A stretch of 64,000 nucleotides of DNA from Nocardioides cavernae (GTDB taxonomy: Bacteria; Actinomycetota; Actinomycetes; Propionibacteriales; Nocardioidaceae). The DNA is taken from the NCBI RefSeq assembly GCF_016907475.1, contig NZ_JAFBCA010000001.1:1922001-1986000 (forward strand), written 5' to 3'. The notes beneath the pieces were generated by a model. The model was not told the DNA's origin and did not search any database. It saw only the letters and a program-made list of their open reading frames with translations. Position 1 is the first letter of the stretch, and each line of letters begins with the position of its first letter. The position numbers and the translations under genes were made by a program. This document shows, piece after piece, positions 46,112 through 57,909 of the stretch.

Positions 46112-46169
46112 TGCGGGGGAACGACGAAGGGCCGGTCCTCTGGACCGGCCCTTCGCTTCTGTACGCCAT
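46112..46169. repeat. 58-bp direct repeat, copy 2
   Basis: Second copy of the repeat at 45908-45965. Its right end runs straight into the left attachment site (46161-46204). On the minus strand this segment is the natural downstream region of the original tRNA-Lys. Confidence 0.85.
46126..46154. terminator. 13-bp hairpin terminator, copy 2
   Basis: Same hairpin as at 45922-45950. On the minus strand it lies 6 bp beyond the tRNA-Lys 3' remnant and was presumably that tRNA's terminator before integration. Confidence 0.85.
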
Positions 46170-46204
46170 CAGGGACTCGAACCCCGAACCCGCTGATTAA
46201 GAGT
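46161..46204. repeat. Left attachment repeat (44 bp)
   Basis: Identical to 57836-57879. It is the orphan 3' end of tRNA-Lys left by integration; sequence diverges immediately at 46205 (TTCGTC against CAGCTG in the intact gene). Confidence 0.92.
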
Positions 46205-46503
46205 TTCGTCAGAGCCGCATTCGGGGGTCTCGAATGGTGCTGGGTGGTCCGGATTCACGCTTGCGTGGTCCGGGCCATCCAATCGAATCTGACCTCGTGC
46301 CATCTCGTCCGTGCACACTCCGTGCACAGTCGCAGTCCGCACCGGCTGGGCAGGCGCAGCCTTGGCGGCGACGCCATTCGCAGGGGATCACTACCTCGAT
46401 TCATCGGACGCGACAAGCGCCCGCGTGAAAAGGTCGGCGGGTCTGGTGGGTAACGGCTGCCCGCTCGGAAAAGACCCACCTGTTGACGCGAAGGAAACCC
46501 CCA

Positions 46504-47277
46504 GTGCGCCGCTTTGCTCTTGCCCTCACGGCCATCTCTGCCATCGGCTTCACGTCTGGATGCTCGGGAGAGCCCGTCGATATGCCAGATGTGGTTGGGA
46601 TGAAGTTGGACGATGCCCAGAAGGCGGTTGAAAAGGCAGGATTTGATGACGACGTCCAGGTCGAGGGGGGAGGCGTGTTCGGGATCGTCGTGGAGTCGAA
46701 CTGGACCGTGTGCAGTCAGGAGCCTGCGGTAGGCAGCGAAGTTTCAGATCCGCCTTCGCTGACCGTGGAGCGCGACTGCGGTGGAGACGACGCTGAGGGT
46801 GGCCGCGAGAACTCCAGCAGCGAGGACCAGGAGGACACGGAGGATGCCCAGACTGAGGCTCCATCCGAGTCAAGCGCACCCGTAGCCGACCAAGATCTGA
46901 CAGTGAAGAACAGCCCAGACCTTCGGGCGTTGCTCGCATCAGGCAACCAAGCCTTTGACGCGCACAGGGCGTTTGCCACGAAGCACAAGGGCGAGACCAT
47001 CGTCTTTGACGGTGCTGTGGGCCTGATCCTTCCTCACGGCGACTACTCGACACGGTTCGACTACGCCCTTTACCCCGGGGACTACGACGGCCCGCACACC
47101 CAGGGGCCGACCTTCGCGTTCATCGACGTGAACTATTACGACTTCGGTCTCATCGGCAAGAAGATTCCCGACTCGGTCGACGAAGGGAAGAACTTCCGCT
47201 TCACCGCCACGGTAAAGGGCTTCCAGAAGCGCGGGGGGTTCATCGAGCTTGACCCCGTGGCCACCGAAGCGCGCTGA
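46504..47277 (+). CDS. PASTA-DUF4839 lipoprotein
   Basis: A 257-aa lipoprotein: signal peptide with lipobox FTSGC, a single PASTA-like domain (VDMPDVVGMKLDDAQKAVEK, about residues 28-95), an acidic Ser/Glu linker, and a C-terminal domain (about 135-257; GETIVFDGAVGL, HGDYSTRFDYALYPGDY, FIDVNYYDFGL, KNFRFTATVKG) that I recognise as DUF4839. PASTA domains bind peptidoglycan or related ligands. The GTG at 46504 is used because AAGGAAA lies just upstream. First gene inside the island. Role unknown. Confidence 0.8.
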   Translation: MRRFALALTAISAIGFTSGCSGEPVDMPDVVGMKLDDAQKAVEKAGFDDDVQVEGGGVFGIVVESNWTVCSQEPAVGSEVSDPPSLTVERDCGGDDAEGGRENSSSEDQEDTEDAQTEAPSESSAPVADQDLTVKNSPDLRALLASGNQAFDAHRAFATKHKGETIVFDGAVGLILPHGDYSTRFDYALYPGDYDGPHTQGPTFAFIDVNYYDFGLIGKKIPDSVDEGKNFRFTATVKGFQKRGGFIELDPVATEAR

Positions 47278-47325
47278 GGCGAGACACGTGCGCGAGCTCG
47301 GTGCCGCTGATCGGAAGGCGTCGCT

Positions 47326-48303
47326 TTGAACACGTTCGCGGTGCCTTATGCAACTGAGGCGTTCCCACCATCCTTCGGAGTTGGCACTGGGTCCTTGAAG
47401 CTCACCGGGAGCGATCTGGCCCATGCGTTGTTCGTGACCGGCCGTGCCCCAGGTGACCAAGCCAAGTTCGGGGACGCCTCGGTGTGGGAATGGCTTCACC
47501 GTTCTAGCCTGGTTCCCGCCTACGTGCGGCGTCACTCATCCGGACGCCTCGTGCGCTCAAATCTGGCTCTGACGCTAGATCGGTCGGAGAAGGTCGCACT
47601 TTCGTACGCACTTGGCCAAGCCATGACTGCGGTCTTCTGCCATCAGGTCTTGAACGTGCCGATGCTGCTGCACGTGGACCGATACGAGAAGCGCTGGAAA
47701 GTCGACCTCGGCGGCAGTAATAAGCGTCCCGACCTTTTTGGTCGCTTGGGACCTGCGCAGTGGGTAGTCGCCGAGGCCAAGGGGCGCTCCAACGCAGCGG
47801 AGTCCTCGCTGCCCGCTGACCTGGTCAAGCAGAAGAGCGTGGTCAAGAGTGTTGCTGGGCATCCACCAGTGGTGGCGCTGGGTTGCATCACATCGTTCCC
47901 CGCCGTGAAGGCAGGCAAGCCCGGCCACATGAAGGTGAACGCCGTGGACCCGGACGCCGACGCCGAGGGCGTCGACATCGAGCTTCAAGACGGTCGGTAT
48001 CTGCAGGCGTACTACGAGCCGTTTGCACGAGCACTCGATGGCGAGCTCGGCGTGTCCCGCGAGGGCGATGACTTTGCGAAGAGGTTCAACAATGCGGTCA
48101 CCCTGGGGCTGCGTCCTGTGCTGTACGAGCTTGTCACCACCACGGGCGGCGACGAGCTCGCTCGCGCTTACGACGGACTTGATCTGCGTCCAAGCGAGGA
48201 GGAGCGCGAAGCGGGCTGGCGTTCGGATGGGACGTTTGTCAGGGCCGATTGGGCGAATGCGCTCGCCCTACCAGACTACGAGGCGGAGTACGAGGCGGAG
48301 TGA
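47326..48303 (+). CDS. PD-(D/E)XK-like nuclease candidate
   Basis: A 325-aa protein of no family I can name. In the middle it has KRPDLFGRLGPA followed by WVVAEAKGRSN, i.e. PD...(10-15 residues)...E-A-K, the active-site arrangement of PD-(D/E)XK nucleases. The N-terminal part (about 1-110) is helical and the C-terminus acidic. TTG start with GGAAGG 8 nt upstream. Inside the island, 48 bp after the lipoprotein gene on the same strand. Restriction or another defence activity is possible; this is inference from the motif and location. Confidence 0.6.
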   Translation: MNTFAVPYATEAFPPSFGVGTGSLKLTGSDLAHALFVTGRAPGDQAKFGDASVWEWLHRSSLVPAYVRRHSSGRLVRSNLALTLDRSEKVALSYALGQAMTAVFCHQVLNVPMLLHVDRYEKRWKVDLGGSNKRPDLFGRLGPAQWVVAEAKGRSNAAESSLPADLVKQKSVVKSVAGHPPVVALGCITSFPAVKAGKPGHMKVNAVDPDADAEGVDIELQDGRYLQAYYEPFARALDGELGVSREGDDFAKRFNNAVTLGLRPVLYELVTTTGGDELARAYDGLDLRPSEEEREAGWRSDGTFVRADWANALALPDYEAEYEAE

Positions 48304-48506
48304 CTCGCTGACCTGCCAGGCTCACTTGACCGCCCCGCTCAACGCGCCCAGACCGGAGAAGCAGCCTGCTACCCGGCTCTCATTTGTGGACGGGAGCAAC
48401 AAAAGCCAGTACCGCGAGATCGCCTAAACGCAGGTGCTTTCGATTCCCGATTCGACCTCTGGCTGCCGATTCCTTGCTAAATCAGTTTCCCGAGATAGCG
48501 GCACCT

Positions 48507-56760: not shown

Positions 56761-56777
56761 CCCCGACGCAGGGACGT

Positions 56778-57120
56778 CTACACGCGTGCGGACGGCCCGC
56801 CTTGAGGGCCTGCGATGTCGTACGTAACCATCGCTACGTCGGGTCGGATGTCTGCCTGAGCCAGGCGGCGCGTCAGATGGTCGAAGTTGAATCGCGGCCT
56901 TTTGCGGTTATTGAGGATGCCGACGTAGGCCAGCGGCAGCGGGTGCGTCGGGTACTGCGCCTCAGCGGCGTTGAGGATCGCCGATAGCTTCTCGAAGTCG
57001 CGGACCACCTCGCCGTAGTCGAGTCCCTCGGACTGGGTGGCAGATACCTTCAGCTCCGTGATGACCGTGAAGTCACGCAGGCGCGCCAGCCCCGACTTGG
57101 GATTGGGCTCCCATCTGCCA
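56778..57120 (-). pseudogene. C-terminal fragment of a restriction-like protein
   Basis: The minus strand encodes WEPNPKSGLARLRDF, VITELKVSATQSEGLDYGEV, VRDFEKLSAILNAAEAQYPT and LAYVGILNNRKRPRFNF before a normal stop. The E-L-K in a hydrophobic strand resembles the E-x-K of PD-(D/E)XK enzymes. Beyond about 57120 the frame runs antisense to the integrase fragment and is no longer protein-like, so the 5' part of the gene was lost at that junction. Assignment is tentative. Confidence 0.5.
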
Positions 57121-57125
57121 ACTGA

Positions 57126-57785
57126 TTGACCGCTGCCGACGAATGGGGGCCGATCTTCGAGTTGATCGCTGGGGCAGGACTCCGTCGTGGGGAGGCTCTC
57201 GGGCTGCGCTGGGGCGACGTCAACATGGAGAGCGGGACGCTGGTGATCCGACAGCAGGTTGTGCAGCTCGATGGCCACACGGCTCCGTGCCTGCGGTGCG
57301 GAGGAAGCCACCGTGGCCCCGCATTCACCCCACCGAAGACCGCAAGCGGCGAGGCACGCCGCATCGAGCTCGGCCAAGCGGCTTCTGGAGTGCTGCTCGC
57401 CCATCGACTTCACCAGGACGAAGTCCGGAGCTCTTGGGGGTCTGCCTACGCCGACCACGACCTGGTCTTCGCGCTGGACGACGGGAACCCGATCCACCCC
57501 GAAAGACTCACGAAGCGCTTCGGGATGTTGGTGGGGACCTCCGGGCTTCGGCATGCGCGACTCCACGACCTTCGTCACGCCCGAGCCTCGCTGCTGCTGG
57601 CATCCGGTACCGACCTCGCTCTGGTGTCCAAGATGCTGAGGCACTCGTCGGTGGCGGTGACTGCGGACACCTACTCCCACCTGCTCGAAGGGGTTGGGAG
57701 AAAGGCTGCGGATGCCGCAAATGCGCTCGTGCCTCGCAGAGCGCGTGCACATTCGGTGCACAGTTCGGCTCCTGAGCACAGTTGA
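57126..57785 (+). pseudogene. Truncated tyrosine integrase (catalytic domain only)
   Basis: 219 residues covering only the catalytic domain: ADEWGPIFELIAGAGLRRGE, HDLRHARAS, LRHSS and the nucleophile Y in DTYSHLLEG are all present, but the whole N-terminal arm-binding/core-binding part is missing. The frame begins abruptly (TTG, no ribosome site) at the junction with the restriction-like fragment. It abuts the right attachment site, the usual place for int, so it may be the original integrase of the element that entered tRNA-Lys. Confidence 0.82.
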
Positions 57786-57815
57786 GGCCCTTCCGGATCT
57801 CTCCGTGAAGGGCCT
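57785..57815. terminator. Hairpin between integrase fragment and tRNA-Lys
   Basis: AGGCCCTTC (57785-57793) pairs with GAAGGGCCT (57807-57815), with further CGGA/TCCG pairing inside. It serves the integrase fragment on one strand and the tRNA on the other, replacing the terminator lost to the left end. Confidence 0.75.
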
Positions 57816-57833
57816 CTGACCTGCTGAAACGGT

Positions 57834-57909
57834 TGGTACGCCATCAGGGACTCGAACCCCGAACCCGCTGATTAAGAGTCAGCTGCTCTGCCAATTGAGC
57901 TAATGGCGC
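57834..57909 (-). tRNA. tRNA-Lys (CTT anticodon)
   Basis: The minus strand gives a complete cloverleaf: acceptor GCGCCAT/ATGGCGT, D arm GCTCAATTGGCAGAGC, anticodon stem GCTGA/TCAGC with loop CTCTTAA (anticodon CUU, lysine), T arm CGGGG-TTCGAGT-CCCTG, discriminator A and encoded CCA (57834-57836). Its 3' half is supplied by the island and coincides with the right attachment repeat. Confidence 0.95.
57836..57879. repeat. Right attachment repeat (44 bp)
   Basis: Identical to 46161-46204, inside the intact tRNA-Lys gene. Together the two define the island boundaries. Confidence 0.92.

Follow-up and report, generated by a model that had tools for sequence, protein, structure and literature searches.

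A probably defective phage-like integrative element in a tRNA-Lys(CTT) gene of Nocardioides cavernae

How did an 11.7-kb island come to lie in a tRNA-Lys gene of Nocardioides cavernae, and can it still leave? The island (46161-57879) was found in a stretch of 64,000 nucleotides, hereafter the window (RefSeq assembly GCF_016907475.1, contig NZ_JAFBCA010000001.1, positions 1,922,001 to 1,986,000), which comes from a contig in a complete genome of 4.85 Mb. The original prediction, made from the sequence alone, described perfect 44-bp repeats, an intact integrase and mostly unassigned cargo, and offered a satellite or a decayed element as candidates. We read the island as a defective phage-like integrative element (with a probability of about 0.72): the integrase INT2, encoded at the right end, would have driven insertion at tRNA-Lys(CTT) and would later have been truncated, leaving the island fixed unless some integrase acts in trans. 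A second integrase, INT_mid, lies in the interior. Feature coordinates are collected in Table 1. Genomes and loci that have to be told apart carry our own numbers (G and L). The genus set comprised 215 genomes, our own included (214 others); some searches were run on 209.

Borders, tRNA and empty site

Repeat comparison of the window gave exact 44-bp direct repeats at 46161-46204 and 57836-57879, as originally described. ARAGORN placed a tRNA-Lys with anticodon ctt at 57834-57909 on the minus strand, and the right copy of the repeat is the stretch of this gene from the anticodon loop through the 3' end, which agrees with the predicted identity of the repeats. With respect to membership among genomic islands targeted to tRNA genes, direct repeats matching the tRNA 3' end are present at both borders, and an integrase gene is present at the tRNA border but truncated. 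In the Rfam scan the tRNA was the sole match above the gathering score; a sub-threshold match to EBv-sisRNA-2 (E 0.047) was regarded as chance.

The enclosed DNA is less GC-rich than its surroundings, as had been expected and as the composition check bore out. The GC content (the fraction of G and C) of the island was 0.623; the 20 kb on its left have 0.719 and the 6 kb on its right 0.742. Among 12 island reading frames, GC at third positions ranged from 0.63 to 0.81 (the value for the DUF932 gene being computed across its frameshift), compared to 0.96 and 0.98 in the two flanking genes.

Alignment with an island-free relative, proposed in the original prediction, showed that the target exists. 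G030 is 96% identical to the window over the tRNA and the right gene and 95.4% identical over 2,972 bp of the left flank; there, the left flank joins the tRNA directly, with one core copy and no insert. Positions 46110-46204 of the window, beyond and within the left repeat, are 97.9% identical to this empty site. The tRNA-Lys of the window has 76 nt with an encoded CCA, compared to 74 nt without CCA in G030. No full-length relative of the island was found at the DNA level in the 214 other genus genomes, so the universal conservation that would have spoken against an island was not seen; pieces only were detected, the longest covering the DUF932 region (in G159 and in G047) or the gene for the 377-aa protein (in G028).

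We fetched 20 relative loci of 7-20 kb each, and none of them had a second core copy (direct-repeat strand, up to 8 mismatches). The matching left flank stops within ~125 bp of the tRNA in four loci (L046, L053, L055 and L065, G030 among them). In seven others (L047, L049, L050, L054, L056, L058 and L060), 7.1-9.8 kb separate the left flank from the tRNA. These inserts share ~7 kb with one another (5.8 kb for one pair) at a GC of 0.709-0.716; given the flank-like GC, the shared DNA and the lack of a second core, they are not islands of the kind seen in the window. Five loci (L051, L052, L057, L062 and L064) had 1.9-7.4 kb of other DNA before the tRNA, with a GC of 0.713-0.734, and no left-flank match appeared within the fetched stretch of L048, L063, L059 and L061.

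The encoded CCA was considered as a mark of an occupied site and ruled out by the seven flank-like loci together with L059 and L061, where an integrase open reading frame (ORF) adjoins tRNA-Lys, yet the full CCA is absent. Since this criterion failed, we do not claim tRNA-Lys as a broad insertion hotspot. The integrases beside tRNA-Lys(CTT) at L059 16602-17498 and L061 4091-4930, in two genomes, are of another lineage (25-26% identity to INT_mid).

We propose the following course of insertion. The 44-bp core of the attachment site of the element (attP) would have recombined with the 3' half of tRNA-Lys(CTT). Insertion would have rebuilt the tRNA at no loss to the host, since both the 3' half, CCA included, and the terminator would be replaced by those of the element. 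Positions 57783-57835 are 94% identical to the chromosomal 3' flank of tRNA-Lys in G053 (GC of that locus 0.72-0.76), and for this identity the attachment region looks as if it had been captured from some tRNA-Lys locus.

Absent from the earlier description was a 72-bp copy of the terminator and tRNA tip at 45908-45979, outside the island just beyond the left repeat; G030 has that stretch once. An ~85-bp palindromic intergenic repeat (45978-46063), with three other copies in the genome at 72-73% identity, lies between the two copies of the tRNA-Lys terminator.

Arm-type sites and the truncated integrase

The two ends carry a matched pair of arm-type sites, which is the new observation here; attP sites of the lambda-like kind are built in this way. 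The pattern GTGCACAnTCnGTGCACAGT had 2 matches in the 64 kb compared to 0.09 expected (up to 3 mismatches), with none elsewhere: GTGCACACTCCGTGCACAGT at the left end and GTGCACATTCGGTGCACAGT at the right. Both sites lie inside the island on the same strand, at 106 (left) and 71 (right) bases from the cores, and agree at 18 of 20 letters. Matched sites at both ends indicate that both ends belong to one element, and the position of the right site inside the end of the INT2 gene ties these ends to INT2. Tandems of the same layout and with other letters (GTGACCA, GTGAGCA) were seen at the equivalent place beside tRNA-Lys in G047 and G079; a second, left-hand tandem was not found in the G047 stretch.

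As a sequence pattern, paired arm-type sites flanking the core on both sides suggest membership among prophage attachment systems of the tyrosine-integrase type. The system itself is of a kind already known from actinophages. PMC10865867 describes actinophages integrated at tRNA-Lys-CTT, where the core (33-49 bp) spans the 3' half of the tRNA and the tRNA is rebuilt, and reports putative arm-site pairs flanking the core for this integrase group; its table gives ShedlockHolmes, Hammy, Aminay and RonRayGun as examples. The island shares with them the core over the tRNA 3' half, the rebuilt tRNA, the tyrosine integrase and the putative arm-site pairs. Unlike these phages, it has no virion or replication genes in the scanned ORFs, its attachment-site integrase is truncated, and an integrase of a different lineage lies within it. 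By analogy, the GTGCACAnTCnGTGCACAGT sites are putative Int-binding sites, and the way in which the island moved may be that of the actinophages.

INT2 matched PF00589 (7.8e-19) and is 60% identical to an intact homologue in G047, its first ~154 codons being gone. For the missing N-terminal part (residues 1-154 of the G047 protein), INT_mid (34%) was the sole match with E below 0.04 anywhere in the window. In integrases of the lambda type, the N-terminal part holds the arm- and core-binding regions. INT2, the gene of which ends next to attP, would have catalysed the insertion and bound the paired arm sites on either side of the core; a later deletion or rearrangement would then have removed its N-terminal part. 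Because the attachment-site integrase has lost its front part, the island is probably stuck; it likely cannot now excise by itself and would stay in place unless an integrase acts in trans. An open frame that ends against the INT2 break (56781-57116) is perhaps the tail of another cut gene; it had no relative in 209 genus genomes and no Pfam match.

The genus search for INT2 relatives used E<=1e-50. The relatives found above 55% identity were the G047 protein and a broken remnant in G079 (L099 9000-9325), both beside tRNA-Lys(CTT); the other matches in that search were 37-40% identical. A further INT2-like integrase (38%) in G198 (L082 1404-2468) lies ~55 bp from tRNA-Pro(GGG). Judged from these neighbourhoods, with tRNA-Lys in G047 and G079 and tRNA-Pro in G198, INT2 belongs to a lineage associated with tRNA genes. 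A strict tie of INT2 to tRNA-Lys was not upheld: it is true among the close relatives found and fails at 34-38% identity, where the neighbour is tRNA-Pro or no tRNA is found within 1.5 kb.

Several observations weigh against the history proposed here. The function of the arm-type sites is argued from analogy. INT_mid is intact, with the catalytic residues kept in the alignment, as seen by eye, and it might act on the tRNA-Lys attachment sites. Three of the four INT2-like loci at 34-38% identity (L113, L114 and L116, in G133, G069 and G082) had no tRNA within 1.5 kb on either side. The threshold of E<=1e-50 misses broken copies such as that of G079, so other INT2 remnants may exist. No excisionase gene was recognised in the island. 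Finally, the G047 island holds both integrases but no left core copy was found there, so that an INT2 element complete with its two ends is seen in none of the relatives.

The internal module and its hairpin leaders

The claim of an intact integrase stood in part. INT_mid is indeed intact, but it is one of two integrases, of which the other, at the attachment site, is truncated. As the mover of the island, the intact enzyme was not borne out: INT_mid is part of a distinct module that other genomes also carry. It is 34-38% identical to the INT2 lineage. At E<=1e-70, it was present in 3 of the 215 genus genomes and in 4 of 341 family genomes (2 of 26 genera), our own genome included in these counts, and in all four carriers a DUF932 gene follows it. 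Scanning genome contigs with INT_mid brought up 10 loci (26-46% identity), none of them titled as actinobacterial. The DUF932 gene matches TIGR03299 and phrog_1221 in two frames with a frame switch near 53572. With its second part, 252 matches were found among 50,697 phage records; identities stayed below 60% throughout, and 251 of the matched records are named for actinobacterial hosts. By these sequence relationships, INT_mid and its DUF932 partner are a separate phage-like module, which would have ridden inside the island.

Could INT_mid recognise the tRNA-Lys attachment sites and excise the island, with INT2 as a relic? It is full length and keeps, by eye, the catalytic residues; it is the sole other relative of INT2 in the genome, the two being the only ones of this kind at E<=1e-10; and both cores and both arm-type sites are intact. 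On the other hand, INT_mid lies 5.0-5.5 kb from either end, and the arm tandem, which sits in the end of the INT2 gene here and at the equivalent place in two further INT2 loci, does not occur in the G159 stretch L097. No tRNA was detected in the 99 kb that hold the INT_mid-DUF932 unit of G159, and INT_mid is thus not tied to tRNA-Lys. We consider such continued mobility rather unlikely. A search of G159 for the attachment site of INT_mid found none. L097 and its neighbours form a large low-GC region of more than 60 kb, in which an exact 1.4-kb repeat looks like insertion-sequence DNA.

The tRNA-Lys island of G047 resembles that of the window in having INT_mid, an ORF like that of 88 aa, DUF932 with hairpin leaders, and INT2 beside tRNA-Lys. 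It differs in that INT2 and DUF932 are open throughout, other genes lie between, and the left core copy was not found. This shared order (INT_mid, 88-aa ORF, DUF932 ... INT2, tRNA) concerns the right half of the island, the left half being unmatched in G047, and would be expected if two tandem elements occupied tRNA-Lys: one with the cargo on the left (46205-51650) and one from INT_mid to INT2 on the right, the core between them having been lost. Tandem elements in a Frankia tRNA-Lys are reported for actinomycete integrative conjugative elements (AICEs) in PMC3218068. Such a composite seems improbable, since no degenerate internal core rose above the shuffled background and the outer arm-type sites share 18 of 20 letters, as expected of a single element.

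The genes of the module are preceded by leaders (GGGCTTTCTGCGTTTC before INT_mid and GGGCTTTCTGCATTTC before DUF932) of one layout: each has a strong hairpin, then CTTTCTGC[A/G]TTTC (or a variant of this box), then a Shine-Dalgarno-like stretch and the gene start. The leader is present at all six INT_mid and DUF932 genes of the window, G047 and G159; in G303, the carrier from the second genus, a hairpin precedes both genes (by eye), and the box pattern was matched by DUF932 only. Folding of the six leaders placed a hairpin there in every case, with a z-score below -3 in four and of -2.85 and -0.50 in the others. The exact 16-mer GGGCTTTCTGCATTTC occurred in 2 of 209 genus genomes, once each and at these genes, compared to 0 for the reversed control.

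In viral contigs, the 18-base form of the leader was present in 5 stretches, and in L129 it is rightly placed before a 199-codon ORF. The longer pattern was found in 27 viral stretches compared to 4 for the control, which was one arbitrary, slightly shorter pattern of similar composition. Four of the 27 (L129, L152, L154 and L158) had a GC of at least 0.65, a hairpin immediately ahead of the motif with a folding energy of -14 kcal/mol or lower, and a following ORF of at least 70 codons; five (L146, L147, L157, L159 and L164) had a hairpin of ~-12 and a 49-codon ORF, and the remaining 18 lacked the hairpin-motif-ORF arrangement. The pattern was absent from four phage regions with DUF932. With few of the 27 stretches fitting and these four regions without a leader, the evidence for a wide phage motif is thin, and we set this idea aside.

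The closest parallel is with the short conserved start-linked elements SAS and ESAS of cluster K mycobacteriophages, half of which have an inverted repeat (PMC3203893). The likeness is in a short element just upstream of the start codons of several genes. The letters differ (GGGATAGGAGCCC in those phages), and in the island two genes carry the leader, the hairpin of which ends in a T-rich terminator-like run. A tentative idea, which we hold as possible though doubtful, is that the unit of INT_mid, 88-aa ORF and DUF932 with its leaders is an integrase cassette that moves as a passenger between elements of the family and can either mobilise its host's attachment system or substitute for it, the leader being a control element of actinophage type at start sites.

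Cargo, element class and significance

The description of the cargo as mostly unassigned and free of virion, replication and conjugation genes held for the ORFs scanned (19 chosen ORFs with Pfam, 10 with PHROGs and 10 with PADLOC). No virion, replication or conjugation gene was recognised in the Pfam and PHROGs scans; as for a complete prophage, capsid, terminase and tail genes were not found in the same scans. No PADLOC model of anti-phage defence matched in its 10 ORFs (best E 0.025).

Table 1. Features of the island and its borders (window positions)
Feature	Position	Strand	Basis or remark
Extra copy of terminator and degenerate tRNA-Lys tip, 72 bp	45908..45979		92% to 46112-46183
Host tRNA-Lys terminator-like hairpin, displaced 11.7 kb from the tRNA gene	46112..46160		
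Left att core, 44 bp	46161..46204		exact repeat
Left arm-type site, putative Int arm site	46311..46330	+	pattern match
PASTA and DUF4839 protein, 264 aa	46483..47277	+	PF16127 5e-37, PF03793 4.8e-8; phrog_29396
Probable PD-(D/E)XK nuclease-like protein, 325 aa	47326..48303	+	conserved D, ExK, QK
524-528 aa protein, C-terminal hydrophobic segments by eye	48507..50093	-	no relative found
377-aa actinobacterial protein	50322..51455	-	97 database matches including itself
Hairpin leader with Shine-Dalgarno-like stretch, before INT_mid	51692..51748	+	
INT_mid, intact tyrosine integrase, not next to att	51749..52780	+	
88-aa ORF between INT_mid and DUF932	52777..53043	+	similar ORF (32%) at same place in G047
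Hairpin leader with Shine-Dalgarno-like stretch, before DUF932	53061..53112	+	
DUF932 / TIGR03299 phage-type gene, frameshift near 53572	53113..54172	+	profile matches
345-aa protein	54381..55418	-	no family match
204-aa zinc-ribbon-like protein	56146..56760	-	weak matches only
Open frame ending against INT2 break	56781..57116	-	perhaps tail of another broken gene
INT2 integrase fragment, N-terminal part absent	57126..57785	+	matches residues ~155-367 of intact G047 homologue
Right arm-type site, within INT2 3' end	57745..57764	+	pattern match
Element-borne terminator-like hairpin and tRNA end	57786..57835		
Right att core, 44 bp	57836..57879		exact repeat
tRNA-Lys(CTT), reconstituted, CCA encoded	57834..57909	-	ARAGORN and relatives

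The product of 47326-48303 is a probable PD-(D/E)XK nuclease. The family had 336 database matches; in 35 aligned sequences (this protein included) chosen from the best 120 of them, D113, E127, K129, Q146 and K147 were invariant. D...ExK is the catalytic motif of PD-(D/E)XK enzymes. Neither this protein nor the 377-aa protein had a PDB match at E<=0.001 in the fold search. P0064, a homologue of the nuclease-like protein, has an N-terminal extension with a weak TIR_2 match (25.5 bits; cut-off 28).

Among the two fates first offered, decay found support; the satellite lacks a hallmark gene, though DUF932 has phage relatives. A satellite packaged in helper-phage capsids would account for a DUF932 gene of phage type and, more weakly, for hairpin leaders resembling a few in viral contigs. 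Nevertheless, the Pfam and PHROGs scans turned up no gene for a terminase, primase, repressor or capsid in their ORFs, the cargo at 47326-48303 and 50322-51455 had no relatives in the viral contigs searched, and the DUF932 gene itself is frameshifted; we regard a satellite as very unlikely.

Equally far-fetched, in our view, is a remnant of an AICE. As in AICEs of the pSAM2 type (PMC3218068, which also reports tandem use of tRNA-Lys), a tyrosine integrase is targeted to a tRNA gene in an actinobacterium. Unlike them, the island has no recognised gene for replication or FtsK-like transfer: the Pfam scan of 19 ORFs gave no FtsK/SpoIIIE (Tra), RepAM or Prim-Pol domain, RepSA having no model of its own there, and the match of the 88-aa ORF to TraD was sub-threshold (E 0.095). 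In the literature, judged by titles and abstract openings, we found no description of this island.

If the island is a defective phage-like integrative element, as we propose, an intact integrase alone is insufficient for calling an island mobile, as the enzyme of the attachment site can be broken in an island that carries another, unbroken one in its interior. With the arm-type sites, the ends of the island become open to test. The unit of INT_mid, DUF932 and leaders, present in two genera, gives a defined target for the role of DUF932 genes adjacent to integrases, and the cargo offers an uncharacterised nuclease-like family together with a 524-aa protein, for which the search returned no relative.

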